A stretch of 64,000 bases of DNA from Xestospongia bergquistia (Eukaryota > Porifera > Demospongiae > Haplosclerida > Petrosiidae): NCBI GenBank assembly GCA_963965975.1, contig OZ014424.1:3720001-3784000 (forward strand), read 5' to 3'. The notes under the pieces are model-generated. The model did not search any database and had not been told where the DNA came from. It saw only the letters and a list, made by a program, of their open reading frames with translations. A program made the position numbers and the translations under genes. Positions 12,945-56,691 of this stretch are shown here, piece after piece. Position 1 is the stretch's first letter; every line of letters starts with the position of its first letter.

Positions 12945-13040
12945 GACGTTTAGATCACTACTTTTTTATACGGAGGTTCGGTTATAAGAGAGCCCTTCCC
13001 TACAACGAGTAATCATTAGATAAAATCATCATTAATTTTT
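12945..13040 (-). promoter_or_regulatory. Conserved upstream block of FEM1-like copy B
   Basis: About 95 bp directly upstream of the ATG is nearly the same in copies B, C and D (12945-13040, 21009-21100, 26050-26130). Read on the minus strand it contains GGGCTCTCTTATAACCGAAC and, closer to the ATG, CGTATAAAAAAG (TTTAAAAAAG in C and D). These may be core promoter or 5'UTR elements; their conservation is directly visible, the function is inferred. Confidence 0.5.
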
Positions 13041-19019: not shown

Positions 19020-21008
19020 CTAAGGAAAATAATTTAACTGCTTAAAGTAATGAGGATCATGTAACTTGATAAACTCTATAACATGAGAAGGCAGTCCTTG
19101 ATAAGGTATACAGTACTTCACTACAGCATTAGCTGCAGTACAATAGAGAGATAAAGGAAGGTGTGGAGAACATAAAGCTTTGTATAATGGAAGCTTTGAT
19201 TTAACTATGTCACTGAACAATGTCAGGCCTTTACAGTTAGTTGTGTCTGCATGAGCACCATATTCCAATAATATCTTTATAACTTCCTCTATTCTTTCAA
19301 TTTTGTATGCATTAACTGCCTTTTTAAGAGCTACTTGAAGTAAAGTTCTTCCATCCCATCCAACATCATTTATTACAGCATCACCTCCTACTTCAAGGAG
19401 AAGACGTAGTAGTGAAGGGTATTTGTAAATGAAATCAGAGTTAGACAAAAGTAATTCTGATCCTTCTGGATAATGAAGATAGTTTGAAACAAACTCTTTT
19501 GCTAAAGAGATTAACTCAAAAGGATAAGATGAACTGGAAGATTCACAGCTCTTTATCCACATAGAAAACATTCTTAATACTTCATGTTTGTCATCTGGTT
19601 CAACTGGCAGCTGTAGGTGATATTTGGTCTTCAGAGCAATTAGTCCAAATGTAATGTATAATGGAAAATCAGGTGGATATGCTGTTTCGAGAAGGTTATG
19701 AATAAATACATGTACTTCGTCCAGGACACATTGTGTAATATGAAATCGAGGAAAAGGATAGTAATTGGGTGGCTTGGAACATATTTCTTCACATATATTT
19801 GTTTCTAATAGTACACTTCTTTTAATCACAGACTGACCTTCTTTAAGATATCCATTATCAATCATTCTATTTCCCACTTCTAATAGGTACTCAATACATA
19901 CCCTACCTAGACATCGCTCGTAAATCAATACATATTGAAAAAATATTTCTAAAGTATTGTCCCATATCGCATCCAGCTCTTCCTTTGTTTTCACCTCCTC
20001 ACGTAGGTCATATTCATCTACTGGTAATGGATATGAAAGCTGAACATTATATTCCTTCATGATTTCAAGACCTTTAATCCATACGTGGTAAAAACTAATT
20101 TTTTTCTCTTCTTCATGAAACCAACACACAATTTGACTTAGATGCCTAACAGCTTTCAAGAAATATACATCAACTATAGATTCTCTAGGACAATCTTTTC
20201 TTTGAAGAAAAACCTCCTCTACAGACTCTTCCCCAGCAGACACAGCAGCAAGATACACAGGAGATGGTATGTAATCAATATCTGTAACACAAGAGGTAGC
20301 AGTAAACATAGGAGGTGCTCCATAATCTAATAAAAGCTTAACTACTTCATTAGCAAATGAAGTATGACTACCAATGTGTAAAGCTGTGTAGCCATCTTTT
20401 GTACGTTGATATACATTAGCATTTTTATCAAGCAAATATCTTAAAATCCGAATTAGGGTTTCTTTTTTTGTAAGGAAACTTCTGGCAACTTGTATTAATA
20501 GGCTAATACCCTCATTACAGGCCTTGTTAATATCAGCACCACACTCCAGTAAATACTTTATAGTCTCAAGGGAATGTGCATGACATAATAGTGTACTCCC
20601 ATCAGTTGATGACTTGTTAATTTTGGCCCCTTTTGAAATCAAATATTTAATTACTTTTAGAGATTTTTGGTCACAGCCATCTCTACATTCTGCTATACAA
20701 GCTGCTATTAGTGGGGTAATTGCCATATTTTTGTGAAGAAATATAACAGCTATTGTATTTACATCAATGATATTAGGGAAAGTCTCAAGGAAGTAGTTGA
20801 CAATGCTAAATTTGCCCCAATAACAAGCATTGACAAGAGGTGATTCCAACATGTACTTTAGTGGAGGGCAAAACGTAGTTGGTCCAAACCGTGCTCTTTC
20901 ATTAGGTTGTACTTCTTTTATTAATGCCTCTATCTCAGTTAGTTTGCCATATTTGGTCCAGTAACACAATTGTTGATACTTTTCTTTACTGAATCTGTAG
21001 TCTGCCAT
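19020..21008 (-). CDS. FEM1-like ankyrin protein, copy C
   Basis: Single-exon gene, 662 aa, with the same domain order as copy B. The start MADYRFSKEKYQQLCYWTK and the C-terminal VHL-box-like block are almost identical to copy B. Most differences lie in the ankyrin linkers (TFANEVVKLLLDYG-like segment, shortened by one residue) and in the helical segment around residues 290-330 (WFHEEEKKISFYHVWIKGL). Intact frame, a conserved ATG and the conserved upstream block argue that it is expressed. The differences fall in the surface-exposed substrate side if the FEM1 comparison holds, so copies could recognise different degrons; that is inference. Confidence 0.85.
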   Translation of the reverse strand: MADYRFSKEKYQQLCYWTKYGKLTEIEALIKEVQPNERARFGPTTFCPPLKYMLESPLVNACYWGKFSIVNYFLETFPNIIDVNTIAVIFLHKNMAITPLIAACIAECRDGCDQKSLKVIKYLISKGAKINKSSTDGSTLLCHAHSLETIKYLLECGADINKACNEGISLLIQVARSFLTKKETLIRILRYLLDKNANVYQRTKDGYTALHIGSHTSFANEVVKLLLDYGAPPMFTATSCVTDIDYIPSPVYLAAVSAGEESVEEVFLQRKDCPRESIVDVYFLKAVRHLSQIVCWFHEEEKKISFYHVWIKGLEIMKEYNVQLSYPLPVDEYDLREEVKTKEELDAIWDNTLEIFFQYVLIYERCLGRVCIEYLLEVGNRMIDNGYLKEGQSVIKRSVLLETNICEEICSKPPNYYPFPRFHITQCVLDEVHVFIHNLLETAYPPDFPLYITFGLIALKTKYHLQLPVEPDDKHEVLRMFSMWIKSCESSSSSYPFELISLAKEFVSNYLHYPEGSELLLSNSDFIYKYPSLLRLLLEVGGDAVINDVGWDGRTLLQVALKKAVNAYKIERIEEVIKILLEYGAHADTTNCKGLTLFSDIVKSKLPLYKALCSPHLPLSLYCTAANAVVKYCIPYQGLPSHVIEFIKLHDPHYFKQLNYFP

Positions 21009-21100
21009 GACGTTTAGATCACTACTTTTTTAAACGTATAGGTTCGGTTATGAGAGAGCCCTTCTCTACAACGAGTTATCATTGAAGATAAAGACACGCT
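21009..21100 (-). promoter_or_regulatory. Conserved upstream block of FEM1-like copy C
   Basis: Same block as upstream of copies B and D, with GGCTCTCTCATAACCGAACC and TTTAAAAAAG. A further ~80 bp insertion-like difference follows at ~21080. Confidence 0.45.
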
Positions 21101-24066: not shown

Positions 24067-26049
24067 CTAAGGAAAATAGTCAAACTGTTTAAAGTATTGA
24101 GGATCATGTAACTTGATAAAGTCTATAACATGAGAAGGTAGTCCTTGATAAGGTAAACAGTACTTCGCTATAGCATTAGCTGCAGTACAATAGAGAGATA
24201 AAGGAAGGTGTGGAAAACATAAAGCTTTGTATGATGGAAGCTTTGATTTAACTATGTCACTGAACAATGTAAGGCCTTTACTGTTAGTTGTGTCTACATG
24301 AGCACCATATTCCAATAATATTCTTATAACTTCCTCTATACTTTCAATTTTGTATGCATTAACTGCCTTTTTAAGAGCTACTTGAAGTAAAGTTCTTCCA
24401 TCCCATCCAACATCATTTATTACAGCATCACCTCCTACTTCAAGGAGAAGACACAGTAGTGAAGGGTATAAGTAGATGAAATCAGAATTAGACAAAAGTA
24501 ATTCAGATCCTTCTGGATAATAAAGATAGGTTAAAACAAACTCTTTTGCTAAAGAGATTAACTCAAAAGGATAAGATGAACTGGAAGATTCACAGCTCTT
24601 TATCCACATGGAAAACACTCGTAATACTTGACGTTTGTCATATGATTCAACTGGTAGCTGTAGATGATATTTGGTCCTCAGAGCTGTTAGTCCAAATTGA
24701 ATGAACAATGGAAAATTAGGTGGATATGCTTTTTTGAGAAGCTTACGATTTAATACATGAAAGTAGTCCAGGACACATTGTGTAACATGAAATCGAGGAA
24801 AAGAATAGTAATTGGGTGGTTTGGAACATATCTCTTCACATATATTTGTTTCTAATAGTATACCTCTTTTAATCACAGATTCACCTTCTTTAAGATATTC
24901 CTTATCAATCATTTCTCCTCCTACTTCCAGCAGGTACTTAGTACATTCTCTACCTAGACATCGCTCATAAATCAATGCATGTTGAATAAATATTTCTAAA
25001 GTATTACACCATAATGCATCCAGTTCTTCCTTTGTTTTCACTTCCTCACGTAGATCATATTCATCTACAGGTAATGGATATGACAACTGGACATTATGTT
25101 CCTTCATTAATTTAAGACCTTTAATCCATTCATAGTAAAATCCAATTTTCTCCTCTTCTTCATAAAACCAATACAAAGCTTGTCGCCTCATAGCTTTTAA
25201 CAAATATACATTGACTTTGCATTCTCTAGGACAATCTTCCCTTTGAAGAAAAATCTCCATTACAGCCTCTTTTCCAGTACAAGCAGCAAGATACACAGGA
25301 GATGGTATGTAATCAATATCTGTAACACAAGAAGTAGCAGTAAACATAGGAGGTGCTCCATAGTCTAATAGAAACTGAACTACTTCTTTATAAGCAAATG
25401 AAGTATGACTAGCAATGTGTAAAGCTGTGTAGCCATCTGTTGTACATTGATAAAAATTAGTATTTTTATCAAGCAAATATCTTAAAATCTGAATTTTGGC
25501 TTCTTTCTTCAGAAGGCCATTTCTGATGACCTGTATTAGCGGACTAATTCCCTCATTACATGTCTTATTAATATCAGCACCACACTCCAATAAATACTTT
25601 ATAGTCTCGAATGACTGTGCATGATGTAATGGAGTAGATCCATCTGTTGATGCCTTGTTAATTTTGGCCTCTTTTGAAATTAAATATTGAATTATATTTC
25701 GAGATTCTTGGTCACAGTGATCACTACGTTCTGCCTTACAAGCTGCAATTAGTGGGGTAATGGCTGTTTTCTTCTCCAAAAATATAGCACCCAATGTATC
25801 TACATCAATGATATTGGGGAAAGTCTCAAGGAAGTACTGGACAATCTTAAATTTGCCCCAGTAGCAAGCAATGACAAGAGGTGATTGTAACATGTACTTT
25901 AGTGGAGGGCAAAACGTGGTTGGTCCAAACCGTGCTCTTTCTTTAGGTTGTAGATCTTTTATAAATGCTTTTATCAGAGGTAGTTTGCCATGTTTGGTCC
26001 AGTAACACAATTGTTGATACTTTTCTTTACTGAATCTATAGTCTGCCAT
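24067..26049 (-). CDS. FEM1-like ankyrin protein, copy D
   Basis: Single-exon gene, 660 aa; third intact member. Ankyrin cores PLVIACYWGK, TPLIAACKAE, TPLHHAQSFE and TALHIASHTS, TPR-like middle with LPVDEYDLREEVKTKEEL, C-terminal ankyrins and the SLYCTAANAI...GLPSHVIDFI end are all present. It sits head to head with the only intact TTL-like gene (528 bp between its ATG and the first visible TTL exon), which may share a two-way promoter. Its last 120 residues are almost identical to copies A-C, far more alike than the first 330. That fits either recent conversion or strong constraint on the ubiquitin-ligase-binding end. Confidence 0.85.
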   Translation of the reverse strand: MADYRFSKEKYQQLCYWTKHGKLPLIKAFIKDLQPKERARFGPTTFCPPLKYMLQSPLVIACYWGKFKIVQYFLETFPNIIDVDTLGAIFLEKKTAITPLIAACKAERSDHCDQESRNIIQYLISKEAKINKASTDGSTPLHHAQSFETIKYLLECGADINKTCNEGISPLIQVIRNGLLKKEAKIQILRYLLDKNTNFYQCTTDGYTALHIASHTSFAYKEVVQFLLDYGAPPMFTATSCVTDIDYIPSPVYLAACTGKEAVMEIFLQREDCPRECKVNVYLLKAMRRQALYWFYEEEEKIGFYYEWIKGLKLMKEHNVQLSYPLPVDEYDLREEVKTKEELDALWCNTLEIFIQHALIYERCLGRECTKYLLEVGGEMIDKEYLKEGESVIKRGILLETNICEEICSKPPNYYSFPRFHVTQCVLDYFHVLNRKLLKKAYPPNFPLFIQFGLTALRTKYHLQLPVESYDKRQVLRVFSMWIKSCESSSSSYPFELISLAKEFVLTYLYYPEGSELLLSNSDFIYLYPSLLCLLLEVGGDAVINDVGWDGRTLLQVALKKAVNAYKIESIEEVIRILLEYGAHVDTTNSKGLTLFSDIVKSKLPSYKALCFPHLPLSLYCTAANAIAKYCLPYQGLPSHVIDFIKLHDPQYFKQFDYFP

Positions 26050-26576
26050 GACGTTTAGATCACTACTTTTTTAAAAGTAGGTTCGGTTATAAGAGAGCCC
26101 TTCCCTACAACGAGTAATCATTAGATAAAATCATTAATTTTTACTTAATTACTACAATATCTTTCAATGATAGAGGCCAGCCCTCCCTTCAATGTAAAGG
26201 GTGAAGCTAACACTTGGTGAGATTTGTGTGCTGGCTTTAAAGGAGTAATCAACAACCTACTGAATGAAGTAGTTAATATTACATAATAGTTTTGTCTTAG
26301 TGTTAAGTTTCCGTAACATTTGATATAGGTAATAAAGACTTTGAAGACAGCCATTTTACAGTGAAACCGTCTTCTCTCAGACGCTTCTCATTATCCTGTA
26401 TCCTAGTATCAACCATTACATACAAATCATGGGATCAGTATAGGTATTTTGAAGTGGTTTTATAGACAAACCTCAACGTCTATCACTGATACAAATTTTT
26501 ATATGAGAAAAAATGACATGTTAGAAGTAAAAAAGATAATATCAATGTGATGAAGAAATTAAATCTTTGTTTTCAG
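26050..26576. promoter_or_regulatory. Divergent intergenic region FEM1-like D / TTL-like
   Basis: 26050-26130 is the conserved FEM1-like upstream block. The rest should hold the start of the TTL-like transcript, but I could not find a first coding exon with an ATG that joins the phase-1 acceptor at 26576. It may be very short or lie further left. Confidence 0.4.
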
Positions 26577-27873
26577 GTGATGTGTTCACAGTTGTCTTCA
26601 CTGGCTCTAGAACTCTTGCTCATCCATTTCTTAAAGCACAGCTTTGTAAATCAAATGTGTTAATAAGTGCTATTCCTTATGTTCATAAGGTCACTATCGA
26701 TAGGTGGGATATGTATTCACTGCTTCAGAATTTTCTAAAACCTTATGGAACATCAGTAGAGCAACTTAAACTTGTACCTAATACTTATTTGATGAGTAAA
26801 TTAATACAGTCACCAAACATCTTACAACATCTAAAAGAAAGAAAACCAAACAGTATGTGGTTAATAAAACCAAGAACAGACTCCGGAGGCACTGGGATTG
26901 AAGTAATTGACAGTACACTGCAATTAGAGCAGAAAATGCTATCATCAGCTGAAAAAATTGTTCAAGAGTATATACATATTCTGTTATCACTTGAAGGTTG
27001 TAAATTTGATATCAGAGCTTTCATTCTTATAGCAAACACACAGCCATATATGTTATTTCATCATGATGGATATCTACGTGTATCTTTGAAAACATATCAT
27101 TCTAAAGGTAGTCGTGATGCTCATCTAACAAGCACAAATATTCAGAGCAAACAACCTGACTTCTCTCCTGATAAACACTACTGCTTCTATGATAGGTTAC
27201 AAGCATATTTAGATCAACATCATCCCGATAACAGTACTTTTGTCACTAACAAATTAATTTTTTACATCAAAAAGACTGCTATACTCTTGTTACATTTAGG
27301 TAATGTTTGACATGATACAATTACCTTACTTCTGCTTAATTGTAGTTGACTTGTTGATGTCTAAGTAAATTTTATAGTTAGCAAAACCAGTATACTATAT
27401 TTCTACATATATAGGTTTTCATCTCTTGGAGAGAGCACCTTCCTGTTTTCATCTAATGGGTTTAGACTTTATGGTATCAATTGACTGGAATATTTGGTTC
27501 ATTGAAGCTAATGTCTACCCTGGAAGTCGAACATTTGGATACATGAGTGATTATCATCATAAACAGAAAGTGAGTGACAGTAAGTACACAAACTATTTAA
27601 TAATAATATATTATATTTCATTTAATCATACATGAACAATATGTTACTTAATGTACATTAAAATACATACCTCATATATCATATAGACTTTTATTTATTA
27701 CAGAAGGACATGCTTGATTTAGTGGTGATAATGAGACAGACACCTCAAATATTTCTGGACATGCCTATAGGAGAATGGTTTCATTCTTGGCAATTAATAT
27801 GGAGAGAAAATCCTCCAGATTGTCCACTATTAGATAAGTATAATCCTTTACTTGAATTTAATGGTTCAAACTA
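26577..27873 (+). CDS. Tubulin-tyrosine-ligase-like (TTL/TTLL family) protein, 5' exon not found
   Basis: Three exons: 26577-27299, 27415-27569 and 27704-27873 (stop), with introns of 115 and 134 bp. The junctions restore LLHLGFHLLERAPS and HHKQKKDMLDL. Family marks: WLIKPRTDSGGTGIEVI (ATP-binding lysine and glycine loop), VQEYI, KFDIRAFIL (the TTL hallmark Asp and Arg), HLTSTNIQ where most members have HLTN, and GLDFMV...WFIEANVYPG, with Glu and Asn for metal. TTL-family enzymes ligate an amino acid to tubulin tails using ATP; the substrate here is unknown. The Asn-to-Ser change in HLTN could weaken catalysis. The visible part begins just after a splice acceptor (TTTTCAG), so the ATG is in an unseen exon. 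It is the only one of four array copies still open. Confidence 0.8.
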
Positions 27874-30939: not shown

Positions 30940-32035
30940 TTATATCTTCTTGTATAAGCTCATTACATGTAAGATCTAGTGAGATATCACATTTCTTTTT
31001 AATTTCATCAATCCAGTCTTGACACAACGTTTGGGCAGCTTATTTCATTGGACCACCTTCACTTGAGAGACACTGTATGAGAAGTTGACAATGTCCACGT
31101 AACTTTGAAATGTCTTCTCTAATAAATTGCATTGCATTTTCAAATTCATCAATCACACTGTGAGCAGTTGGAGAATCTCGGACTGATTTGCTTATCAGCG
31201 CGGGAGTACATCTCTGCAGTAACATGTTGGAGACATGGTTTTCACTGGTCAGTTAAACAAGCAAAATGAGTTGTCAGTATCCTCTTCAATACTTTATGAA
31301 CTTCATTTTCTTCTGTAGCATTGGCACTTGCTATATTTACTAGAAATATCTACAGAGGTACCACAGGAAGGTCTTCCAGGCCTTCTTTCTGTCTTTCTAT
31401 TTGCCCTTGATAATGAAAGGAAGGGACCATCAAGCCAGTTTTCATTTAACCCCTTTTTGTTGATATAAAGCTTCAATGTTTGTTATATATTTACTGATAT
31501 GTTATATACTACATTGACATTTATTTTTAAGGTACTAGTACATAATGAATTATACATAGTCTATACCTTCATTTTTAATATCTAGCTGTGTTCTCAGTTT
31601 AGTAGCTATATCCTTATCACCACAAGTCTCAACAGCTTTCTTCCCAAGAGGGGGCAGTATTATTATTAATCCACCATTGTAAACCTTCCTCTAAAGCAAA
31701 GTGATAGTCTTGATCACTGCTGGCCATTGTCTTGAATTCTCTCCTCTCCTCCAGTGAGACACCAATAAGACTAGTGAGTTTATTCCATTTATCTTCAATG
31801 ATAAAACTACTCATTATTAGATGTCAACTCTTTTGAAACAAATGAGATATCATTTATTTGTATTAATGTTTATTTGATGTCAACTCTATTGGAACAAATG
31901 AGACATTAGTTATTTGTATTAATGTTAACATGTTTTAGGTCCAGGATTAAGTTCAATATCTCCTGAGGAGTAGTAACAGAAACAAAACTAAGGAGAATGT
32001 CAAGTTCCCACCACCCTCATCTCCTGACATCGGAT
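30940..32035 (-). pseudogene. Inverted, broken copy of the 2A-death-domain gene exons 1-3
   Basis: Mirror image of 36567-37651. Exon 1 copy (~31935-32030) keeps MSGDEGGGNLTFSLVLF but an 8-base deletion puts the GDIELNPGP codons out of frame. Exon 2 copy (~31570-31815) encodes the death domain up to TAPSWEE, where another 8-base deletion shifts the frame. Exon 3 copy (~30945-31400) keeps LISKSVRDSPTAHSVIDEFE but has a stop in place of a leucine after GGPMK. Intron positions match, so this is a DNA-level duplication. Confidence 0.9.
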
Positions 32036-32174: not shown

Positions 32175-33566
32175 GTCATCATATCAGATGTGCTGCTTCA
32201 AACGGCAAGGAAACAGAACTAGTTATATTATTTTGGCCATTTTCCAGCCAACCACTACATGGTGGCTTTAGGTTCTTATACATAATTAACATCTATTGAG
32301 AATATTGAGAATGCATAAAAGATATTAGATTTGTAATTGATATGGAGGACTATGTATCACTGCTGAATGTTTTGCATCATCTTATAAAAATTGTTATGTG
32401 AGTTTGACGTATGAGTATGGCACTCTACATATAGTGATATATAATGTTTAAGGACTAGTAAACAATTACAATATATCTACAGGTAGTTAAGTTCATTGAG
32501 TGAGTAGCACATTGAGTTACAAGGAAGTAACATTAAATGTATTACTTATACTACTTACTAACAACCATTATAATATCTGTTATAGCTATAGATATACAGA
32601 ACCAAGTTCAGAATGTTTGCTAATAGGTCATGTAAACAATTCTCCTATATCATTAATTACTAGCATAGTTAGAGCCATTAATGTAGACAGCTAATTAAAC
32701 TAATTAATATAAGTACAAGGAAACAATGTACATTGTATGATATCTGTTTACTAATGCTATACATTACCACATGGAATGTAAACTAATGAGTGACATGTAT
32801 GCAAATAACAAATTGATGTATGGAATGATCTACCACTATTAATGATTTATTAATATCAAGTCACTTAAGACAATTTCTATATATGTATATGCATATACTT
32901 CTGTTATTGATACTGTATGTGTGTATATACAGGTAATGTCTCATATTAAGAGTTACTTTCTTGAATACTGAACTGTGTAATTCATAATAATTAGCAACCA
33001 AATCAGTACTATGTTGCTAATGTATTATTATAAACAACCTTAGTGACTATAGCTATTATGAATCAGATAAAGGAACCATTAACAGTGAATGTATATGTGA
33101 TATTTTTATAATTTTTAAAAGGAGAGAGAAAACCCAACAGTTATTTGAAAGGCACATACAACAATAGATTAAAATGTTAGAGTAAACTTTTGATTTTGGA
33201 CACCATGTATATATGAACTTGACCTACTTTTTGCTAAAGGTGTTGGGCTTGGGGCAATAACTGAAATACATACAGCAACGAGAGAAAACTATTTCTTCTA
33301 TTCATGATTTGTGTACAACTGATTTATATATATATATATATCTTTATTTTGATGTTTTTGCTATCCTTTTTAAGTTGTTAATCTAGGCTGAACAATGGTT
33401 TATTTCATTAGTATTTTCCATTTATGTAGGGATTAAAGATCAGGAAATAACAGTCACCCCAGATTATCCTGTAGCTGAAGCAATGAAAAGTCTTCATAAA
33501 GAATACACAGATTTAGGTAAAAATATTAAAAATGCCCTACGCAAACTAATTGTAATCTGTTTGTAA
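32175..33566 (+). pseudogene. Direct copy of intron 3 and start of exon 4 of the death-ankyrin gene
   Basis: Matches 37735-39440. The intron is followed by the same splice acceptor (TTTATGTAG, ~33427) and the first ~45 codons of exon 4. A base change creates a GT (TTAGGTAAAAA) and the frame stops at ~33560, after which the similarity ends. It lacks ~470 bp present in the intact intron near 38750-39050. Confidence 0.85.
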
Positions 33567-35950: not shown

Positions 35951-36566
35951 CCATATCATTAATATAATAGATAGCTTCTGTGAACTTGATACTCTTGTAC
36001 CTTGGTGTGCCTGGATACAAAGCTTTGAACTTGGCAACTTATATCAGATATATTTATGTTTGATAAATCTCTTGTCTGTACACTCTATGTCCTAAACCAT
36101 TTAAGTGCATGGACAGGCAGATTGGGATCTAAGTGATATAAATACTCAGTCCTCATAATTGTAGTAAATTATAGTCCAACAAAAATATAATAAATGATAG
36201 TAAATTCAATGGAATCGAAACTGCACTGAAGTACTTATACTTTGGGGCTCTAGAACTTGTAGCAAACCATATTATTTAACAATTCAGTTTGGCAGTGAAA
36301 GATGAAGCACTGCTGTGTTGGTTTAACTTATTGTTTAACCTCCACACTTTATATGCAGAATTGAAATTCCACGTACTGGAAGTGCGTGGGTTTCCACTCC
36401 CAGTTACGAAGTTCTCTTTTGATATAGAGATTGTTTGTAGATCATTATGATAGATATCCATCAATGGAGAGCTACTATTGGGCTATGGTATTGTCATCAC
36501 ATACCATATACTCCTAAAAAGATTCTCTCTACCACTGATACTCCTGAATATGTGAAGTTACTTTTG
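35951..36566. promoter_or_regulatory. Upstream region of the 2A-death-ankyrin gene
   Basis: No gene of its own. The frame of exon 1 is open back to 36447, but that extension is absent from the inverted copy, where similarity begins at the ATG used here. I therefore treat the extension as 5'UTR. Confidence 0.4.
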
Positions 36567-36681
36567 ATGTCAGGAGATGAGGGTGGTGGGATCCGGAACT
36601 TGACATTCTCCCTAGTTTTGTTTATCTTACTTCTCCTCATTTTATCAGGGGATATTGAACTTAATCCTGGACCTAAAACAG
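36567..36681 (+). other. N-terminal 2A-like (StopGo) leader exon
   Basis: The exon encodes 38 codons: M, a short polar stretch, hydrophobic residues 14-26 (FSLVLFILLLLIL), then SGDIELNPGP. This fits the 2A consensus D-x-E-x-N-P-G-P, where the ribosome skips the Gly-Pro bond; the break would lie between 36671 and 36672. 2A leaders with this hydrophobic form are reported at the N-terminus of sea urchin NLR proteins, where they can also act as signal sequences when skipping fails. Here the downstream protein would start with Pro at residue 36, directly before the death domain. The motif is read directly; activity is inferred. Confidence 0.85.
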
Positions 36682-39600
36682 GTAACATTAATATAAATAA
36701 CTGATGTCTTATTTACTTCAATAGAGTTGACATCAAATAGTGCTTTGCGACATCTTGTTAAGAGTGGTTTTATGATTGAAGATAAATGGAATAAACTCAC
36801 TAGTCTTCTTGGTGTTTCACTGGAGGAGAGAAGAAAACTCAAGACAATGGCCAACAGTGATCAAGACTATCACTTTGCTTTAGAAGAAGGTTTACAATGG
36901 TGGATTACTAATGGTACTGCTCCCTCTTGGGAAGAACTTATTTCAGCTGTTGAGAGTTGTGGTGATAAGGATATAGCTACTACACTGAGAACACAACTAG
37001 ATATTAAAGATGAAGGTATAGACTATTATGTACTAGTACCTTAAAAATACATGTCAATGTAGTATATAACATATCAGTAAATATATAACAGACATTGAAG
37101 CTTTACATCAACAAAAAGGCATGAAACTGGGTTGATGGTCCCTTTCTTTCTTTACCAATTGCAAGGGCAAATAGAAAGACAGAAAGAAGGAACAAGTGGT
37201 CAAACTGGAAGGCCTTCCTGTGGTAACTCTGTAGATATATCTAGTAATATAGCAAGTGCTAATGCTACAGAAAAAAATGAAGTTCATAAAGTATTGAAGA
37301 GGATACTGACAACTCATTTTGCTCGTTTAACTGACCAGTTAAAACCATGTCTCCAACATGTTGCTGCAGAGATGTACTCCCGTAAGCTGATAAGCAAATC
37401 AGTCCGAGATTCTCCAACTGCTCACAGTGTGATTGATGAATTTGAAAATGCAATGCAATTTATTAGAGAAGACATTTCAAAATTACAAGGACATTGTCAA
37501 CTTTTCTTACAGTGTCTCTCAAGTGAAGGTGGTCCAATGAAATTAGCTGCCCAAAAGTTGTGTCAAGACTGGATTGATGAAGTTAAAAAGAAATGTGATA
37601 TCTCACTAGATTTTACATGTGATGAGCTTATACAAGAAGATATAAAACAAGGTTAGTAACACAAAACTTGAGAGACATAAGCACAAATGTGTATTGTTCT
37701 CTTTGTACTGTTATTATATCACAATATCATATTATGTCAGATGTGCTGTTTCAAACTGCAAGGAAAAGGAACTGATTATATTATTTTGGGACATTTCGTA
37801 GTCAGTCACTACATAGTGGCTTTAGGTTTTTGTACATAATATCTAATGAGAATACTGAGAATGCATAAAAAATGTTAGATTTATAATTGATATGCAGGCT
37901 GAATGTTATCACTGCTGAATGTTATGTGTCATCTTATAAAAATTGTTATGTGAGTTTGACATATGAGTATGTCACTCTACATGTAGTGATATATAATGTT
38001 TAAGGACTAGTAAACAATTACAATATATCTACAGGTAGTTAAGTTCATCGAGTGAGTAGTACATTGATTTACTATAGCTGTGCATAGACTTATGCATGAC
38101 ACACTGACTCTAGTCACATTCAAGTAGTTACAAGAAAGTAACATTAAATGTATTACTTATACTTATGTACTAACAACCATTATAATATCTGTTATAGCTA
38201 TACATATACAGAATCAAGTTCAGAATGCTTGCTAATAGGTCAATTCTCCTATATTGTTAATTACTAGCATAGTTAGAGTCATTAGTGTAGACAGCTAATT
38301 AAACTAATAATTAATATAAGTATGAGGAAACAGTAATGTCTGTATGTACATTGTATGATATCTGTTTACTAATGCTATAGACATTATCACGTGGAATGTA
38401 AACTAATGAGTAACATGACATTCAAATAACAAATTGATGTATTGAAATGATCTACCACTATTAATGATTTATTAATATCAAGTCACTTAAGACAATTTCT
38501 ATATATGTATATGCATATACTTCTGTTATTGATACTGTATGTGTGTATATACAGGTAATGTCTCATATTAAGAATTACTTTCTTGATTTTCATAATAATT
38601 AGAAATCAAATCAGTACTATGTTGCTAATGTATTATTATAAACAACCTTAGTGACTATAGCTATTATGAATCAGATAAAGGAACCAATTACAGTGAATAT
38701 ATATGTGATATTTCTATAATCTTTAAAAGGAGAGAGAAAACCCAACAGTCTTTAACCAGCAAAATAGGAACTATAACTAAACAGATGAACTGACTACAAC
38801 AAGCTATACAACTGTAACTAGTTATGACAAGTTATTACAATATATTTATCAATATTATTGTAAAAATCATCCTAAGATTATTTTGATGATACTGTTGTTG
38901 CTGCAAGTGACTGAATTTTTGCAGAAGCTGTAGGACTGCTCAAAGATATTTCTTAAGTAACATAACTCACAAGCTTTGATCAGTTGCTAAGTATATCTGT
39001 GATTACTATAAACATGTTAATTTCATTTGTTGCTTTTGAAAGGCACATGCAAAAATGGATTAAAATGTAAGAGTAAACTTTTGATTTTGGATACCATGTA
39101 TATATGGACTTGACCTATTTTTTGCTAAAGGTGTATGGGCCTGGGACAATAACTGAAATACATGCAGCAATGAGAGAAAACTATTTCTTCTATTCATGAT
39201 TTGTATACAACTGATTTATATATATATATCTTTATTTTGATGTTTTTGCTATCCTTTTTAAGTTGTTAATCTAGGCTGAACAATGGTTTATTTCATTAGT
39301 ACTTTCCATTTATGTAGGGATTAAAGATCAGGAAATAACAGTCACCCCAGATTATCCTGTAGCTGAAACAATGAAAAGTCTTCATAAAGAATACACAGAT
39401 TTAGTTAAAAATATTAAAAATGCCCTACGCAAACTAATTGATAATGGAACACTTGAACTTATTGATATTTCTGATTATCTTGGAGAATATTTTAGAATAG
39501 AAGGATTAACAGATGCTACAGATATTCCAAAACTATTCCAGCGACTTTGGCCATATTACAGCTACATTGATGTTGAGGTGTTAGAAGTAATTGTTGATAA

Positions 39601-42600
39601 TGATGACTTCCTAATTCATGAAAAAATACAGAAGGACATGTGTACTTACAAACAACATCTTGAGGAATTTAAGCAATCAACAACACTTGACAAATTCAAG
39701 AATGCAATTAAAGAAGCACTGATACCAAACCCAGAATTAACATCGATTACATGTGAAGTGGTTATCAAAGTTAATCGCGAATGGGGAAAGAAAACATTGG
39801 AGAACTTTAAAACACTAGTTAACTATATGTTCCATCAGAGATTGACTCATATTCGAGTAGAGGAAGGGTCAATTTGTGTAACTCTACTGATACCACAATC
39901 AAGATTAGACTACATCTTGGAAATTGCCACCTTAAAAAAAGATTTTGTATCACTCATTGGAATCTTTGAACTGATTATTGATGGTGAACCTATCCTTGAA
40001 AAGGAAGAAGAAAAGCAATTTTCTTTTAACCAAGCATTACAAGAGGCTTCAAGTCTTGGCAATGAGGAAGCTGTTCACTTCTTACTTGACTTAATTGATA
40101 ATATCAATTGTCAAAATGAAGAAGGTAGAACTGCACTTATGTTAGCTAGTGCAGGTGGACATGAACAAGTTGTACAAATGTTAGTATCAGCTGGAGCTAA
40201 TGTTGATGTTCAAGATAACAATGGTTACACTGCATTGATGATAGCATGTGACACAAATTCCTACACTATAATCAACTACCTACACCAGGCTGGGGCTAAT
40301 CCTGATATACAAAGAAATGATGACGACACAGCTATCATAATAGCATGCCGAAATAATCACTCAGACATTGTGAAGTTATTGCTTCAATGTAATGCTGATC
40401 CACTTATTATTACAAGAAATGGTGACACAGCTCTTACTGTATCAGTATATGTAAACTCCATTGAGATAGTGGAAACGTTACTTGATAAACAGCCAGAGAA
40501 CCAGAAAACAAATTTAATAGTAACAGCTCTCACTACAGCATGTCGATATGGACACTCTCAACTTATTATTAGTTTATTAGTCCATTTACTTGAATATTTC
40601 ACACCAGAGGAATTCCAACTTTTTGTATTATGTGCTGAAGAAGATCACATGTCTACAATGAATCACATTTCTGTTTCTTCTGTTGATATCAATTGTACAC
40701 TAGTCAATGATATCACTCCTCTTATGTTAGCCTCATCTTGTGGGCATACAGAGATAGTACAAGTCCTTTTACAAGCTGGTGCTAATGTACACAGTACAGA
40801 CAGTGATGGGTATACTCCTCTAGTATATGCTATAACAGGATGTAAATCATCTCAAGTTATAGAACAACTACTTAAAGCTGGTGCTCAACCAGATGTCTTC
40901 ATTAATGGCCAGAGTATTGTTGACAAAGCAAGAGAAGAAGGAAGAGAAGATATCTGTACATTGTTAGAACAGTTTAACGTAAATATCCCACAAAAGGAAA
41001 AAGACGAGGAGCATCAGTTACAATTCACTAGTGCTCTTATAATTGATGCTGCAAAAATAGGCCACATCCAGGCTGTTGAACTAATACTCAAAGTGTATGC
41101 AGATGTTAACTTTCAATCTGCAAGTGGTGAGACTGCCCTAATGTTAGCTAGTGAATATGGTCATACTGAGGTTGTTGAATTACTGCTCAAAGAGAATGCA
41201 GGTGTCAATATTAGGAAAGAAGATGGATGGACTGCGCTAATGTTAGCTAGTCGAAATGGTCATACTCAGATTGTTGAATTACTGCTCAAAGAGAAAGCAG
41301 ACGTAAATATTCAGCAAGAACAAAAGTGGACTGCCCTAATGCTAGCTAGTCGAAATGGTCATACCCAGATTGTTGAATTACTGCTCAAAGAGAGTGCAGA
41401 TGTTAATATTCAGGAAGGACAAAAACGTACTGCCCTAATGTTAGCTAGTCAATACAATCATACCCATGTTGTTGATTTACTGCTCAAAGAGAATGCAAAC
41501 ATTAATATTCAAGAGGAAGATGGATGGAGTGCTCTAATGTTAGCTAGTCGAAGTGGTCATACTCAGATTGTTGAATTACTGCTCAAAGAGAATGCAGATG
41601 TTAATATTCAGGATGAACAAAAATGGACTGCCCTAATGCTAGCTAGTCGATATGGTCACACACAGGTTGTTGAATTATTGCTCAAAAAGAATGCAGATGT
41701 TAATATTCAGAAAGACGATGGATGGACTGCCCTAATGATAGCTAGCCGATATAGTCATACACAAGTTGTTGAATTACTGCTCAAAGAGAATGCAGATGTT
41801 AATATTCAGGATGAACAAAAATGGACTGCGCTAATCCTAGCTAGCAGATATGGTCATACACAAGTTGTTGAATTATTACTTAAAGAGAATGCAGATGTTA
41901 ATATTCAGAATGAAGATGGATGGACTGCACTAATGTTAGCTAGTCGAAATGGTCATACACAGGTTGTTGGATTACTGCTCAAAGAGAATGCAAATGTTAA
42001 TATTAAGAAGGAAGATGGATGGAGTGCCCTAATGTTAGCTAGTCTAGATAATCATATCCAGGTTGTTGAATTACTGCTCAAAGAGAATGCAGATGTTAAT
42101 ATTCAGGATGAACAGAAATGGACTGCCCTAATGCTAGCTTGTGAATATGGTCATACCCAGATTGTTGAATTACTGCTGAAGGAGAATGCAGATGTTAATA
42201 TTCAGACTGATAATGGAGCAACTGCCCTAATACTAGCTAGTTTAAATGGTCATACTCTGGTTGTTGAACTACTACTCAAAGGGTATGCAGATGTTAATAT
42301 TCAGGCTGAAAATGGAGTGACTGCCCTAATGGTAGCTAGTGGCAATGGTCATACTGAGGTTGTTGAACTACTACTCAAAGGGAATGCAGATGTTAATATT
42401 CAGGCTGAAAATGGAGTGACTGCCCAAATGCTAGCTAGTGTGTTTGAACATCTTGAAGTAGTTGAATGCTTATTACAATCAAAAGCAGATTCTCACATAG
42501 TAGCATATTTTGAAGGGTTTGAAATGACATCACTTCTTATAGCAGCTCTTAGAGGTAACAGAGACCTTGTTAAAATGCTCATAGACAAAGATGAACCCTC

Positions 42601-43384
42601 TTCTGATGAAATTGCAGAAGTAATAGTATTGTCATGTTTATATGGTCACCCTACTCTCATTACCTTACTCTCAAACAAACTTCCACACTTCACTAATGAT
42701 CAGAGAGAGCTCCTAGACTCATGCATTAAGGGAGATTTAGGTACAGTTGTAATGAAGACATTAGATAATCCGGATATTTCCTTAGTACTTGGTCTTACTC
42801 CACTCGTGATAGCTTCATCATGTGGACATGTTGATATTGTGGATGCTCTCATTCAAGCTGGAGCTGATGTCAATAAACAAGAAAGTTATTTTGGATTCTC
42901 TCCTTTGTTTTTTGCAGTATCAGGTAGTAAATCAATGACAATAGTAGAAATGCTCTTAGAAAATGCTGGCAATCCTAATGTTATTGTTAGCAGTGAAACT
43001 CCATTGGATGTATCTAAAAAGATGCAAAATAAAATCATTATTGAGTTACTAACCAAATATGGAGGTCAAACAGCATTACAATTACAGGATGCAAAGCAAT
43101 CTTCAGAACAGACCAGGAAGTTATCCTCACAATCATCTAGTGAAACAACAATTATAACTACATCTTCACTAACAACCAGTCAATTAACAAGCACAAATGA
43201 AGCTAACAAGAAACAGATGAAGAGAAAAAGAGTGCCAAATTTGGAGTCCATATTTAGTTTATTCACTTCATACATCTTAAATCCTACTCATACATTTAGA
43301 GATACTAGTGTAAAACAAAACAAAATAAAACAAGACAACAAAGAAAAAGCTCAAGAAGGCTATCTTGTTCATACTGTATCTTAA
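36567..43384 (+). CDS. 2A leader-death domain-CARD-like-ankyrin protein
   Basis: Four exons: 36567-36681, 36725-37015, 37166-37651 and 39318-43384. All introns are phase 1; the total gives 1652 aa. Residues 1-35 are a hydrophobic leader ending in 2A motif GDIELNPG|P. Residues ~57-130 form a death domain (KWNKLTSLLGVSLEERRKL ... WWITNGTAPSWEELI). Residues ~165-285 are a helical, CARD-like region (LISKSVRDSPTAHSVIDEFE). Residues ~315-530 hold a domain shared with the gene at 48969-54392. Residues ~530-1560 carry about 25 ankyrin repeats, 14 of them near-identical. The Ser/Thr-rich tail has a basic KKQMKRKR. It is probably an intracellular sensor or adaptor signalling through death-fold contacts, comparable to NLRs but without NACHT (inference). 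The start is chosen because the inverted copy is conserved only from this ATG. A broken relative lies just upstream. Confidence 0.85.
41110..42445 (+). repeat. Homogenised 99-bp ankyrin-coding tandem array
   Basis: Fourteen in-frame 33-residue units from SGETALMLASEYGH to NGVTAQMLASVFEH, most reading xTALMLASRNGHTQ(I/V)VELLL followed by KENADVNIQ. Two linker types alternate, DGW and QKW, giving a 198-bp higher-order period over much of the array. Flanking ankyrins (40020-41100 and 42446-43050) are diverged normally. Confidence 0.9.
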
Positions 43385-46855: not shown

Positions 46856-48038
46856 TTAAGTTGGTGATCGATATAACATATTGCTCATATCAGATCCCAA
46901 TTCATAGTCAAGAGCATCCCATTCTTCATCTCTAAATGAAAATAGTAACCAACTCCACTGGAACTCCTCAAATATATCCAGTAGATCTTGGAGATACTGA
47001 CGGCCACCAGGAACTTCACGGCAAATACCAAATTCTCCGACAAGTATACGACTTGAAGATATACTGTGCTTCCTCTGCCAAGTAACAACATACTTTTGTA
47101 ACATATTTCGAAGAGTGTCCTTTGTAATTTCTATTGAAACGTAGGGACAGTCGACCCAACGTTGTATAAAACCAGGATGCATGTAACCTGGATTACCAAA
47201 TTGTCGCTGTAAAGTGAGATGAGGGTGAGTATACACATGAAATGAATAAGCAATATAGGGATCTTTCAGTGGATGAAGTGCATCAATGGCTCGAGGGTTA
47301 GCGAACCGAGAAGAGGTAAGAATGACAACTGTTTTTGTATCTGATTGTCGAATAGCTGCCACAGCTTCTTTATAAAAATGATTCAATTCTGTAGTACGAT
47401 CTAAAGATAATTCAGTAAAGTTGTCATGTTCTGAGTTTGGTGTATAGGGCTCGTTAATTAAATCATAACCCATTATTAAGTCCCTCATATCTACCAGTGC
47501 TTTGGCAATCAGTCCCCAAAATTTGGCTGCTCAGATTCGGACCTTTTCTGACTCCCAAAATTCAGAACTTTTTTCGCTTTGAAATGGAGCACCTGGTAAA
47601 TCAGTTAATGTAATGATCACTTTCAAACCATGGCTACCAGCTTTATTTATTGCCTGACAGAGTCGAGGGAGAACCTTTCGGAGATGGTTACCATCATCTT
47701 TAATGTTCTTAGCATGTGGATCTAAGAGATAATTTAAGTCTTCAGCATCAGCAACAGCACCTACCCTAATCACTTTGACTCCATAATTAGAGGCTGCAAG
47801 AAAATCAAACTCACTAGCCGGTTCAGATGACATGTTTACACCACCAAACCCATTATTCCATATCGATAATGGAGGCTCGGTATTAGTGGTAGAAGGTACC
47901 ATCTTTCCAACTGGTATTTGATGTAATGGTTTTGTGATGCCTCTGGGCCAATTATGTTCATAAATAAAAGAATAAAACTCAAGAAAAATTTGACTGTCTT
48001 TTTCATTAGCAGGAATGAGCTGTTGTCGCTGGACATAA
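46856..48038 (-). pseudogene. Glycoside hydrolase family 5 (cellulase-like) exon with in-frame TGA
   Basis: One exon of 394 codons starting after TTGATTTCAG (phase 2). GH5 marks: FGGVNMSSEP near the start, KVIRVGAV, KVIITLTD, GYDLINEPY (acid/base Glu), YSFHVYTHP, RILVGEFGICR (nucleophile Glu) and WLLFSFRDEEWDALDYELG near the end. Family members cleave beta-glycans with retention. The frame is open throughout except for one TGA at 47531-47533, after SEKVRI and before AAKFWGLIAK. Both sides are otherwise well preserved. It is therefore a young pseudogene, a polymorphic null allele or a sequence error; I lean to the first because the upstream exon also has a frame problem. Confidence 0.7.
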
Positions 48039-48968: not shown

Positions 48969-51900
48969 TTACCAGAAATGAACTTTGTCCTTAACAGACT
49001 GATAAATATCAAGTGTCTTACAATACTGCTCATGTTGTTTAGTTATGTATATTTTCTGTATTGTACTCTCCTTGGTGAGTGCTGTACAAATTGTCTTGAT
49101 ATCATCATCTTTAAATGAAGTGTGATCATGGAGATATAGTACTGTAAGTGATTTAGTTGTCTTTATAAGTTCAACTATTGTATCAGTACTAGCTGAAGTT
49201 ATTTGAGGATTAGCACTGATAGATAATGTTGTTAATGTTTGGTTTTTAACAAGTCCTTCACTGATATATTTAACGTATTTATCAGTGATGTTACAATCAG
49301 AGATTTGTAGAGTTGTTAAGGTCTTATTATTACTTATCATATCAGACAAGTGAGTTATGTCTTCATATGTGATGCCAGTAACACTGCATAGTCGTAGTGA
49401 TTCGAGTGTGGTGTTTTTGTAGGAGAGAACATCAATGAGTTCCTTGATATTACTATCATCAGTAAGTGGAGTAGAGTGAAGATATAGAACCTTTAGTGTT
49501 TTATTTTCACTGAGAACTTCTGCCAATGTTGAGATACATGTACTGTCCAATGGAGTGCCCTTTATGTGAAGTTCACTCACTATACACTTATTGAGATTCT
49601 TAACAATTACTAACGTATTTTCAGGAGATGACACTTGAAGCAAAATTGACCCTTTTTTTCCAGTTTGTTGTTTTTTCATTAATCTATTCATAACATCTTC
49701 ACATTCTTTGATACTTGGTGAGGTGAGATGAACATAATTATTATCATCACTCCATCTAACACTTCCAGTTTCTTCCGCTGTAAATGGAAATATAGTATTT
49801 ATTTTTGTATATATAAAAAATATATGAGCACATTAATATAATAGCTTGTGACAATCCAGGTAACTTCTACTAAGTACTTCATATCTGATATATGTATTGT
49901 TACTTACTTATGTGTTAGTATTAAAGCTCTACTTAGCTACATATAACTATATGTTAACTATATGTTATGTTAGTGCTACAAACAAAGTAGCTATTGCTTT
50001 GCTATTCAATACATTAAATCTGAGACTATAACAAATACATACGTTCATCATCATCTTCATTTTTCTCTTCTGTTGGCTTATCACTTGTTACCTTTTGAAA
50101 TTCTTGATTTAATTGTGAATTGTTAGTAGACTTGGTCAAAGTACTTGATTCTATAATTTCACATAACAAATTCATGAAACAAATTACTTTAAATATTAGC
50201 ATAGTTCCAGACGTATATCTATTATGTGCTCCTGATAGTATATAGAAACATATAATGATATGACTGTGAAATAAATAATGTCATGACTAGATTAGCACAA
50301 TCAAGAGGCCACATACATTAGACAATGTTACTGCATATATCTAATTATTTAATTACTTACAATTTAAAATAATGGACACTATTTGGATTACTAATGGTAT
50401 AATGAATACATACCTGAGTCTTCAGTTTTGTGTTGAGTTGGTTTATCACTTAATATATCTTGAAGTTTTTGATTTAGCTGTGTATTATTAGTGGATTTGA
50501 CCCAAGTACTTAGCTCTGTAATTTTAAATGAAATAATCTCATGCATGAACTAAAATTACCTTCTTACCTTTCATCTGTTTTAAAGATAAGTTGATCTTTT
50601 CTCCTTTTTCCTGTAGCTGGCAAGTTAATAACGAAATTTTCTCTTGTAACATCTCTATCTCTTTATGCTGTTCTACAAGCACTATATCAGTAGCTATAAG
50701 GTAAAAACATACATGGTAAGTACTACACTAATTTATATAACTGTAAAAATTGATTGAACTATTATATAGTAATGCTGATTGTATGTAGCAAAATTATTTT
50801 GATCAAAAAGTAATTATTATAATGTTTTGATTACTAATATAACTGTATAAACAGTCAAATTTATAATACATTAGTAATCATAATAGTATGTCTTATGTTC
50901 ATTGTTTGCATATGTAACCATGTAACCATACAATTAGCTATATCAACCAGTCAGTGGTATAGTTCACCTTGTTTTTGTCTGGTCAATCTCTCTATTTCCA
51001 ACGTCTTTGCCTTACTCTTCATTCTCTCCAATAGTATCAGCTTCTCTTCACCTAGTTAATATTATAATAAAACAACAAAGTATGTACAGGACCATTAATT
51101 TAAACTTAATGTAAATGTTATTTATATTTGTGTACCCCTTCATTGTACCTTCCTGTTCTTTTGCTCTTTCTTGTTTAATGTAATTTAGCTTCTCTTTGAG
51201 TACAGCATTTTCTTTCTCAAGTTCTCTTACCTCCTGAATCATCATATATACACAATAGTTGGTATCTACTATTACTCATTTCTTACTTTATCTCTAGTAC
51301 ATCCGTCCCAAACAGTGTAGTAACTGATAGTTAGCTTTATTAATCCAATCCCTCTCAGTAGATCAAGATTCGTCTCTGCTTCAATCAATAAAATATCCAT
51401 TGTATATCTTGGAGCATAGCAGGTAACAATGATGGAATTGCCTTCATTTATATTTGAAACTAGAACCTTTTTAGCATTATCCTTAAAGGCTTTTCGTAAC
51501 AAAACTCTGATGTCATAGAGCGAATATTCATCAGCTTCCCACTCTAGAACAAACTTGATGGTTTCACATTTTAAGTAAGAAGACGGACCCCTCGTGACTT
51601 TGAAACACTCGTTGCAACAAACATTAAGTGTAACTTCACAAAAATCTTCAACTGCTACTTTGTAAGCTGTGATGTAATCTTTGGCTTCATCAATATTGAA
51701 ATAATCTACAATGGCTTCTAGGCAATCAACATCAATGATGTTGTGTTTTATTTCAATGATAAACATAACTTTTTTGAATGTTTCAGCAAGTTCTAGTTGA
51801 GGTCTTAGCTCTCTATAACATCTCTGTAAATATGTTTTAAGCTCATCTAGTGAAGGGACTTTAACTTTGATTAGACGAGCAACAGTGTCAACAAGAGTAC

Positions 51901-52834
51901 CATAATGAATTTGCATTTGCCTGAATGTATGCTCCTGATTTTCATGTATAAGTACTAAATAAAATAAGGTAATAGAAATTGTAACAACTTACAAATTAAA
52001 TTATCTATCTATCTATCTGTTTATCTATCTATATATGTATGTATGTATGTATGTATATATATATACATACATACCTGGTGGTACAGTACACTCTGTGTTT
52101 ATATCAGCACCTAATGAAGATGATAAATTATTTTAAAGGGTTAAATATAATCCAAACCTGAACAAGCTTGTTCTGTCACTAATCCACTTGTAGAGGGGAA
52201 ACTATCATTAAGTTCTAAAATTTGAGGTTGATCTGATGGAAATATGTTCTCTATAAATATAGACAATGATATTACAGTGTTGTGAAAGTTGTATGGTGCT
52301 TACCATACTCTGTAAGTATATCTTCAGCTACTTGTACAGTCTTATTTGAATGCATTAAGACAGAAGCTATAACTCTTAACTGACTAGGGTCTTTACAGAC
52401 TGTACTAGACAATGCTCTTATTAGACTATCAGCTAACTCTCTCTCAGTTTTGATTTTTTTGTTAGAGATGAATATCTCTGCTGCTTTCGGCTGATTCTAT
52501 TTGTAAGTAATATTATAGAACATGTTTGCTTGAAAGAAGAAATTCTTACTGGATTTGAAATTTCTGCTAAATCAGAAATTTGCATTGGTGCTAACACTAA
52601 AATTAGTTATAAAAAAGTGGTAATCACTTATATATTATATACAAAGTAAAAATTCATTTAACTAATACATGGTTGTTATAAGGTTGCATATACAAAATGT
52701 AGACATAATACTATTTTGATTACTAATGTACTATAAAATTGATGGTTATACAGCTACAAAAACAATAGTACATTAGTAATGAAAACAGTATTATGTTTAC
52801 TTTTTTGTTGCAACCTGTATAATCAATGTTGACA

Positions 52835-54994: not shown

Positions 54995-56691
54995 TTACCA
55001 GAAGTGAACTTTGTCCTTAACAGACTGATAAATGTCAAGTGTCTTACAATACTCCTCTTGTTCTTTTGCTATGTATAGTTTCTGTATTGTACTCTCCCTG
55101 GTAAGTGCTGTACAAATTGTCTTGATATCATCATCTTTAAATGAAGTGTGATCATGAAGATATAATACTGTAAGTGATTTAGTTGTCTTTATAAGTTCAA
55201 CTATTGTATCAGTACTAGCTGAAGTTATTTGAGGATTAGCACTGATGGATAACGTTGTTAATGTTTGGTTTTTAGCAAGTCCTTCACTGACATATTTAAC
55301 ATATTTATCAGTGATGTTACAATCGGAGATTTGTAGAGTTGTTAAGGTCTTATTATTACTTATCATGTCAGACAAGTGAGTTATGTCTTCATATGTGATG
55401 CCAGTAACACTGCATAGTCGTAGTGATTCAAGTGTGGTGTTTTTGTAGGAGAGAACGTCAATGACTTCCTTGATATTACTATCACCAGTAAGTGGAGTAG
55501 AGTGAAGATATAGAATCTTTAGTGTTTTGTTTTCACTGAGAATTTCTGCCAATGTTGAGATACATGTACTGTCTAATGGAGTGTTCTTTATGTGAAGTTC
55601 ACTCACTATACACTTATTGATATTTTTGATAATTACTAACACATTTTCAGGAGATGATACTTGAAGATAGACCCACCACTTTTTTCCTGTTTGTCGTTTT
55701 TTCATTAATCTATTCATGACATCTTCACATTCTTTAGCATTTGGCGAGATGAGATGAACGTAATTATTATCATCACTCCATCTAACACTTCCAGTATCTC
55801 CTGTTGTAAATAGAATAAGTGATTTGCCAGAATAATAATAATTAGTAAAACTCGAGTGATCAGAGATTTCCTTATAAAACTCATTTTATAGACTATATTT
55901 TATATTTGACTATATACAAATACTTGTAATTATATTTATCATAATAATAGTGTAATGTCAACATACACATACCATAGTTAGTGGATTTTCCTTCATCGTC
56001 TTTCTCAAAGGTTTGGTCACTTTCCTTAATTAGTTGTGTATCCTCTGATATATGTGTGGTAACTGCTATTATCTCTTGAAGTCTTTGACACAACTCTGGA
56101 TACTTGGACCTGAGTCTAACACTTTCCTTTGCTATGGAAGACCGCAGACCTTATGAATATAAGCTAAAAACAATTAATAAGCATCTTTAAATTTCTAACA
56201 TTGCATGTTTTTTGTCAATTGATGAATCTTCTCTTCCTTTTCTTTTATCTGTAAATCTAGCAACATAACTTGCTCTTGAAGGATCTCTATTTCTTTTTCT
56301 TTGTCTGTTAATGCTTTAGCAATATCTATATAGTATATTCATATTACATATATATTATGACATGCTATTCTAATGGCTTACCTTTATATCTGTGCGACTG
56401 CTGAGCCCTAGACTTACTCATTTTATAAAGTCTCAGCTTTTCTGTGTGTTTTCCTATACCTTTATGTACCAGACACTCACTAGATTTGCCCATCATGACT
56501 CCCAGCCACAGTCGAAACACCATCGATGCTTTCAAATCACTGAGTTTCATCCCCTTTAATTTTTGGTAGTCTAACTCGAGGACTACACCAAAGATGTATC
56601 TGTACTTAGTGCCAACTCTAATTAGTTCATCTATTGTTGGATCTTTGCTGAAAAAGGCGTCGAAATCTGTTGAGACTCCACCAACAGCCAT
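54995..56691 (-). CDS. Death domain-coiled coil-LRR protein, short paralogue (4 exons)
   Basis: Exons in transcript order: 56691-56382, 56325-56200, 56149-55973, 55800-54995; total 1419 nt, 472 aa, all junctions phase 1. Exon 1 begins a death domain (PTIDELIRVGTKYRYIFGVV, LELDYQKLKGMKLSDL, MVFRLWLG) but then departs into a short basic stretch (KSRAQQSHRYK), so the last helices of the fold are missing. Exon 2 is a 126-nt coiled-coil exon, the counterpart of exon 12 in the 15-exon gene and the same length. Exon 4 carries ~240 residues of LRR nearly identical to exon 15 of that gene. The ~200-aa domain is absent. It may act as a regulator or decoy of the longer protein; that is inference. Confidence 0.8.

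Follow-up and report, generated by a model that had tools for sequence, protein, structure and literature searches.

Why does the first coding exon of a sponge gene for a Death-domain and ankyrin-repeat protein end at a StopGo (2A) motif, and what would become of the leader that precedes it? StopGo has been described as largely a viral device and rare in cellular genes, a rarity that serves as an argument for drugging it (PMC12846837), and on immune receptors an N-terminal StopGo is known from one sea urchin (PMC4981915). The locus lies in a window of 64,000 nucleotides from Xestospongia bergquistia (contig OZ014424.1, positions 3,720,001 to 3,784,000), and unprefixed coordinates are positions within this window.

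The focal gene and its first exon

On the forward strand of the window DIELNPGP is encoded at about 36651-36673, directly preceded by LLILSG. The gene that begins here and a broken relative on the opposite strand have the following features, the splice sites of the gene being predicted from the DNA sequence.

36447..36681, + strand: exon 1, the leader exon (codons 1-78 plus one base, phase 1)
36447..36494, + strand: N-terminal motif MIDIxQWRxxIGLWYC (codons 1-16; from 82 distinct leaders)
36495..36599, + strand: variable linker (codons 17-51; dN/dS 0.95)
36600..36644, + strand: hydrophobic core LTFSLVLFILLLLIL (codons 52-66; 15 residues, Kyte-Doolittle mean 3.18)
36645..36674, + strand: putative StopGo/2A site SGDIELNPG/P (codons 67-76)
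36682..36724, + strand: intron 1 (43 bases, phase 1)
36725..37015, + strand: exon 2, Death domain (PF00531 in 17 of 28 aligned exon-2 sequences)
37166..37651, + strand: exon 3, helical domain, CARD-like
39318..43384, + strand: exon 4, helical stretch, TRADD-N-like stretch, ankyrin repeats and stop codon
31938..32030, - strand: leader relic, frame-broken, with the 2A DNA motif kept
31568..31826, - strand: broken Death exon downstream of the leader relic, in two pieces, one with a TGA

Joined in phase 1 throughout, the four exons form a single open frame of 1692 codons, whose product of 1692 residues runs from the leader through the Death and CARD-like domains and the TRADD-N-like stretch to the ankyrin repeats. 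Exon 1 ends at 36681, two codons past NPGP, as the first-pass annotation had it, and does so in phase 1; among the 38 other loci compared, 33 have a GT with the same spacing from NPGP. That annotation had further read the locus as a cellular StopGo leader preceding a Death-ankyrin protein, for which anatomy and conservation together provide good support, StopGo activity itself being a prediction. Its placement of the start codon at 36567, from which a peptide of 35 residues would be released, has to be revised. The ATG at 36567 is codon 41 of the frame, with a T at -3, and occupies a position where Met is rare in other leaders and the commonest residue, Ile, accounts for 18%. The ATG of the family lies at 36447, two codons past an in-frame stop, and is preceded by a purine at -3 in 82 of 82 distinct leaders. 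Since translation is placed at 36447, the predicted products are a released peptide of 75 residues and a remaining protein of 1617 residues starting with proline; across 87 leaders, the length ranges from 62 to 78 codons, the proline counted.

Among the aligned exon-2 sequences PF00531 reached a best E value of 1.6e-6, with the focal exon itself at 21.4 bits against a cut-off of 22.6, and a profile of the Death exon gave no match among solved structures. The exon 3 profile found its best solved structure in SUS1 (E 0.022); for this exon CARD is favoured without being established, since designed proteins and bromodomains rank close behind the CARD matches. In exon 4, TRADD-N (PF20694) came out at E 0.0011 and 19.2 bits, below its cut-off of 23.7, in an N-terminal part whose predicted structure is a low-confidence model (pLDDT 45), and the ankyrin repeats with E 2.1e-191. 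The Pfam scan detected neither NACHT nor LRR in the focal protein.

Several other frames share the window. A fragment at 33432-33551 (+) matches the beginning of exon 4 with 95% identity, and an open frame at 51272-51988 (-), with no Pfam match, resembles by eye the helical and TRADD-N-like region of that exon. Three similar open frames of about 670 residues lie at 10953-12965, 19020-21029 and 24067-26070 (-), that at 19020-21029, the one scanned, containing ankyrin repeats; two further frames, similar to each other, occur at 48969-49832 and 54995-55885 (-), the latter, again the one scanned, with weak leucine-rich-repeat matches. A tubulin-tyrosine-ligase-like frame (26540-27310, +) and a glycosyl hydrolase family 5 frame (46856-47530, -) are also present.

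A leader exon family across the genome

In the sponge's own genome (146 Mb), the degenerate coding pattern D(x)ExNPGP occurs in 162 copies (90 and 72 by strand), and the same pattern read backwards, used as a control, in none. A chance motif is ruled out by this comparison, and a curiosity of one locus by the 162 copies together with related leaders elsewhere in the genome: most of the motif copies that were read form the end of one related leader exon.

To avoid counting only copies found by their motif, the leader query was cut before the 2A part (66 residues), and 147 candidates were scored. It matched 134 places in the genome, 128 of them aligned from residue 1. Comparison with a search by the whole leader, in which the best 150 of 187 candidates were scored and all 150 matched, revealed that 123 of the 134 places gain at least 20 bits from the 2A part (median 28.0; focal copy 28.5). 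Four gain little, all frame-broken or stop-bearing when read. The remaining seven have no counterpart among the best 150 of the 187 whole-leader candidates, an absence that may reflect this selection, and span only 21-42 residues of the query; one of them is the broken leader already noted on the - strand of the window, and two lie just upstream of matches bearing the 2A end. Among the 134 places no full-length open leader without 2A was seen. Reading 20 loci by their coordinates gave the same picture, the four weak exceptions being among them and the other 16 of 16 carrying GD(I/V)ELNPGP, including one (L091) that is frame-split near its N-terminus. Broken leaders that still carry 2A (e.g., L005, L014, L065, L072 and L091) are also found, a pattern that recent decay would likewise produce.

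Searching a separate protein collection with a profile built from 16 leaders gave 1038 matching proteins. Among the 120 of these listed, the octapeptide (D/G/C/N)(V/I)ExNPGP is present in 115 leaders, one departs after GDIEL, and four have an open frame with a substituted core (P0061, P0073, P0085 and P0103; the substituted cores read KPGP, NPGL, NPEP and NPRP). These four may be regarded as natural variants whose leader should stay fused; for them and for the one that departs after GDIEL, either a few copies can afford to lose 2A or the copies concerned are decaying.

The motif also occurs in other settings. In L009, L010, L011, L015 and L017 it stands directly before a PHD-type finger without the MIDIxQWR motif; L017 has a stop codon right behind 2A, and L015 continues into what we take to resemble the endonuclease start of a non-LTR retroelement. 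An array at C4:8.60-8.91 Mb (L105-L107), together with L002, holds some ten copies of GACATTGAATTAAATCCAGGTCC preceded by a hydrophobic stretch, and also contains Death-type exons; L106 and L107 have a PRHRRY stretch in common with the PHD-type L017 and may be retroelement remains. In L023 and L024 the hydrophobic-2A end follows a different N-terminal part, and in L003 an open frame with TPR repeats is preceded by a divergent leader (MIDIGVWRARIGLFNSS...GDVEVNPGP).

Two constrained ends and a free linker

Constraint along the leader was examined in an alignment of 82 distinct leaders, derived from those 87 of the 106 motif sites in the loci read that met the leader pattern; the 19 sites left out were PHD-type, C4-array, broken or divergent copies, including L023 and L024. 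Codons 1-8 were affected by the selection pattern, and the search itself fixed the 2A core. Ten residues (M1, I2, Q6, W7, R8, I11, G12, W14, L63 and L64) are each found in at least 95% of the leaders. Pooled dN/dS, a descriptive value here since the leader copies share kinship, is 0.18 for codons 1-16 and 0.23 for codons 9-16 alone, which lie outside the selection pattern, rises to 0.95 in the linker (codons 17-51), and returns to 0.26 in the hydrophobic core; the 0.12 of the 2A segment is biased, the leaders having been found by this motif. The best 15-residue Kyte-Doolittle value over the 82 leaders has a median of 3.08 and a minimum of 2.23, and a median of nine residues separates the core from the scissile bond. 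Lying some 50 residues into the leader, the core does not qualify as a classical N-terminal signal.

The leader thus appears, as far as its sequence can tell, to consist of two constrained ends and a free linker, more than a simple signal sequence would need. The conservation of the N-terminal motif at a distance from 2A suggests that the released peptide is itself functional, a possibility that the first-pass annotation does not raise.

Genes behind the leader

Downstream of the leader lie several classes of immune-type gene. A same-strand leader precedes 76 of the 92 focal-type Death matches used (the best 92 of 106, the 14 weakest being left out) and, within 9 kb and before the next leader, 47 of the 95 NACHT matches listed; the 48 listed NACHT matches without one include 29 on contig C2. 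Seen from the other side, at least 108 of 150 leader matches are followed by a focal-type Death exon, a second Death-like type, NACHT or the exon 4 module, where the second Death-like type was represented by 149 rows from the best 150 of 910 candidates, and the exon 4 module by the best 150 of 328. The second type has no Pfam Death match and owes its name to its look and place. Death followed by the exon 4 module, as in the focal gene, is found behind at least 30 of the 150 leader matches, 26 of them on C14, and at most 42 of the 150 have none of the tested domains in range, an upper bound. Individual arrangements include leader, Death exon and NACHT-type exon (L016), and leader, helical exon without a Pfam match and NACHT-type exon (L045, L046, L048, L051 and L082). 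The first-pass annotation had set the focal protein apart from leader-bearing NLRs by its lack of NACHT; this holds for the protein itself, yet leaders of the same family precede the 47 NACHT matches counted above.

Comparison with known systems

The closest parallel in layout is found in the NLRs of the sea urchin Strongylocentrotus purpuratus (Roulston et al. 2016, PMC4981915). There too, an N-terminal 2A follows right after a hydrophobic stretch on innate-immunity receptors of large gene families, and NACHT genes are among the cargo in both animals. The sea urchin leader has 26 residues, however, whereas that of the sponge has 75 with a conserved N-terminal motif, and its cargo combines NACHT and LRR, both absent from the focal protein. 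Recoding by the sea urchin leader was about 80%, and abolishing it directed the fused product chiefly to the Golgi (PMC4981915). By analogy with this leader it is possible that in the sponge as well, as the first-pass annotation suggested, one mRNA serves two destinations.

The cargo of the focal gene is of a known kind, contrary to the first-pass view that such a Death-ankyrin protein without NACHT was undescribed. In an Amphimedon expansion of 357 proteins, one to three N-terminal Death-like domains are followed by TRADD-N and a variable C-terminus, e.g., ankyrin repeats (Kaur et al. 2021, PMC8195603). The focal protein shares this order of Death-like domain(s), TRADD-N-like stretch and ankyrin repeats, and has both the N-terminal Death-like domain and the ankyrin C-terminus that define the expansion; the family size compares with 328 first-look candidates for the exon 4 module in the present genome, of which the best 150 all matched. 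The Amphimedon proteins are described without a leader, and the terms NPGP, 2A peptide, signal peptide, ribosome skipping and leader do not occur in the text of that paper.

As to the motif, the focal DIELNPGP agrees with the core octapeptide (D/G/C/N)(V/I)ExNPGP by which StopGo/2A is recognized, and resembles the viral L-rich class (Li et al. 2026, PMC12846837) in its D(V/I)ExNPGP core and LLLLSG-like upstream sequence. Compared by eye, LLILSG fits the L-rich group ending in (A/S/C)G, with a deviation at p15, where the focal core has Leu and the class favours Ser. One representative of the class, L-rich upstream motif 6, was active in reticulocyte lysate in vitro (PMC12846837). The viral sites split two proteins within a polyprotein, whereas the present one ends the first coding exon of cellular genes.

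Proposed mechanism and alternative explanations

We infer from its sequence that StopGo is very probably active at this leader. It is likely, if with less assurance, that throughout the leader exon family StopGo separates a released peptide from a cytosolic receptor, with a minor fused form possible. In the mechanism envisaged, a StopGo leader exon would be joined by splicing, as a rule in phase 1, to Death, NACHT and Death-TRADD-N-ankyrin genes. The ribosome would reach NPG/P with the hydrophobic core, nine residues (SGDIELNPG) before the bond, still in the exit tunnel. With room for 30-40 residues in the ribosomal tunnel and a median distance of only nine between core and scissile bond, the core is not expected to have emerged when skipping takes place, a timing deduced from these lengths. 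Most ribosomes would skip the Gly-Pro bond and free the 75-residue peptide, comprising the N-terminal motif and a hydrophobic tail, and would then make in the cytosol a receptor starting with proline. The skipped peptide would reach membranes, if at all, only after release and by its hydrophobic C-terminal tail, since only an unskipped chain could expose the core to the signal recognition particle. Ribosomes that do not skip would produce a fused protein in which the emerged core may act as a signal anchor, yielding a membrane-routed form; the charges flanking the core do not decide whether its Death domain would face the lumen or the cytosol. We lean towards a function of its own for the released peptide, and consider physiological use of the fused form rather doubtful. 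Going further, we tentatively propose a two-product immune transcript, in which about a hundred Death/NLR receptors would each be made by StopGo together with a matched peptide of about 75 residues, freed before the signal recognition particle sees its tail and later inserted into membrane as a partner or guard of the receptor family, so that the leader would not be a targeting device.

The most serious competitor would make targeting the selected function: partial skipping would set the ratio of cytosolic to secreted or membrane receptor, as has been suggested for the sea urchin NLRs, and the peptide would be a by-product. The sea urchin precedent, with direct localisation data (PMC4981915), and the conserved hydrophobic core are both in keeping with such dual targeting. 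What it leaves unexplained is the conserved N-terminal motif, split from the core by an unconstrained linker and for which the 26-residue sea urchin leaders have no space (PMC4981915), and we judge it unlikely. A different possibility is that the leader is an ordinary signal anchor of a membrane-bound Death/NLR protein and the 2A motif idle. In A. queenslandica and D. avara, transmembrane domains within NLR architectures have led to the proposal of membrane-bound NLRs (PMC12909245), and the hydrophobic core is strong throughout the leaders examined. NPGP would nonetheless be superfluous for a bare anchor, yet 2A is kept in the great majority of leaders found without recourse to it and no full-length open leader lacks it; as sequences of this class are active in published assays (PMC12846837, PMC4981915), an idle motif seems most improbable.

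Little credence can be given to the leader exon being a piece of a 2A-bearing non-LTR retrotransposon, captured once or spread along with its element. Work by Odon in 2013, cited in PMC12846837, is said to have established 2A in such elements, and the same genome does place NPGP before PHD-type fingers with a retroelement-like continuation (L009-L011, L015). However, the PHD elements have neither the N-terminal motif nor the shared donor and simply continue in frame, whereas in 34 of the 39 loci compared leader and Death exon follow one common splice layout; membership of the leader family at large among PHD retroelements was rejected for the lack of the MIDIxQWR motif and shared donor in the PHD copies. 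A remote origin of this kind is still possible, but says little on present function. Finally, that the focal gene is a silent or dead copy, its motif without a present role at the locus, is very unlikely: a frame-broken relative does lie 4.7 kb away, but the 1692-codon frame is open over four exons with introns all in phase 1, and the best paralogous leader (84% identical) and best Death exon (90% identical) are free of stops.

Implications

One animal genome thus apparently carries a StopGo first exon on about a hundred immune-type genes, among them those behind about half of the NACHT matches listed. A search of titles, abstract openings and term counts found no 2A leaders in sponges or on Death-ankyrin proteins, although Rao et al. 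in 2025, who reportedly screened cellular proteomes for 2A, may list sponge cases. Within the literature searched, the new elements are the occurrence of the device in a sponge genome, its scale, the use of a single leader family by several receptor classes, the N-terminal motif and the Death-ankyrin cargo. With its many natural variants, a few of them carrying a substituted core, the family lends itself to a direct test of the question. For the 'membrane-bound NLRs' of sponges (PMC12909245) an alternative reading arises, in which the membrane segment may come off during translation; the transmembrane domains reported there may concern such leaders. If the two-product proposal is true, a cellular lineage has made StopGo a routine, operon-like tool for its immune receptors. 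The use of StopGo first exons in this genome would be a second and distant animal case beside the sea urchin, and bears on whether StopGo in invertebrate immunity is ancient or arose repeatedly.
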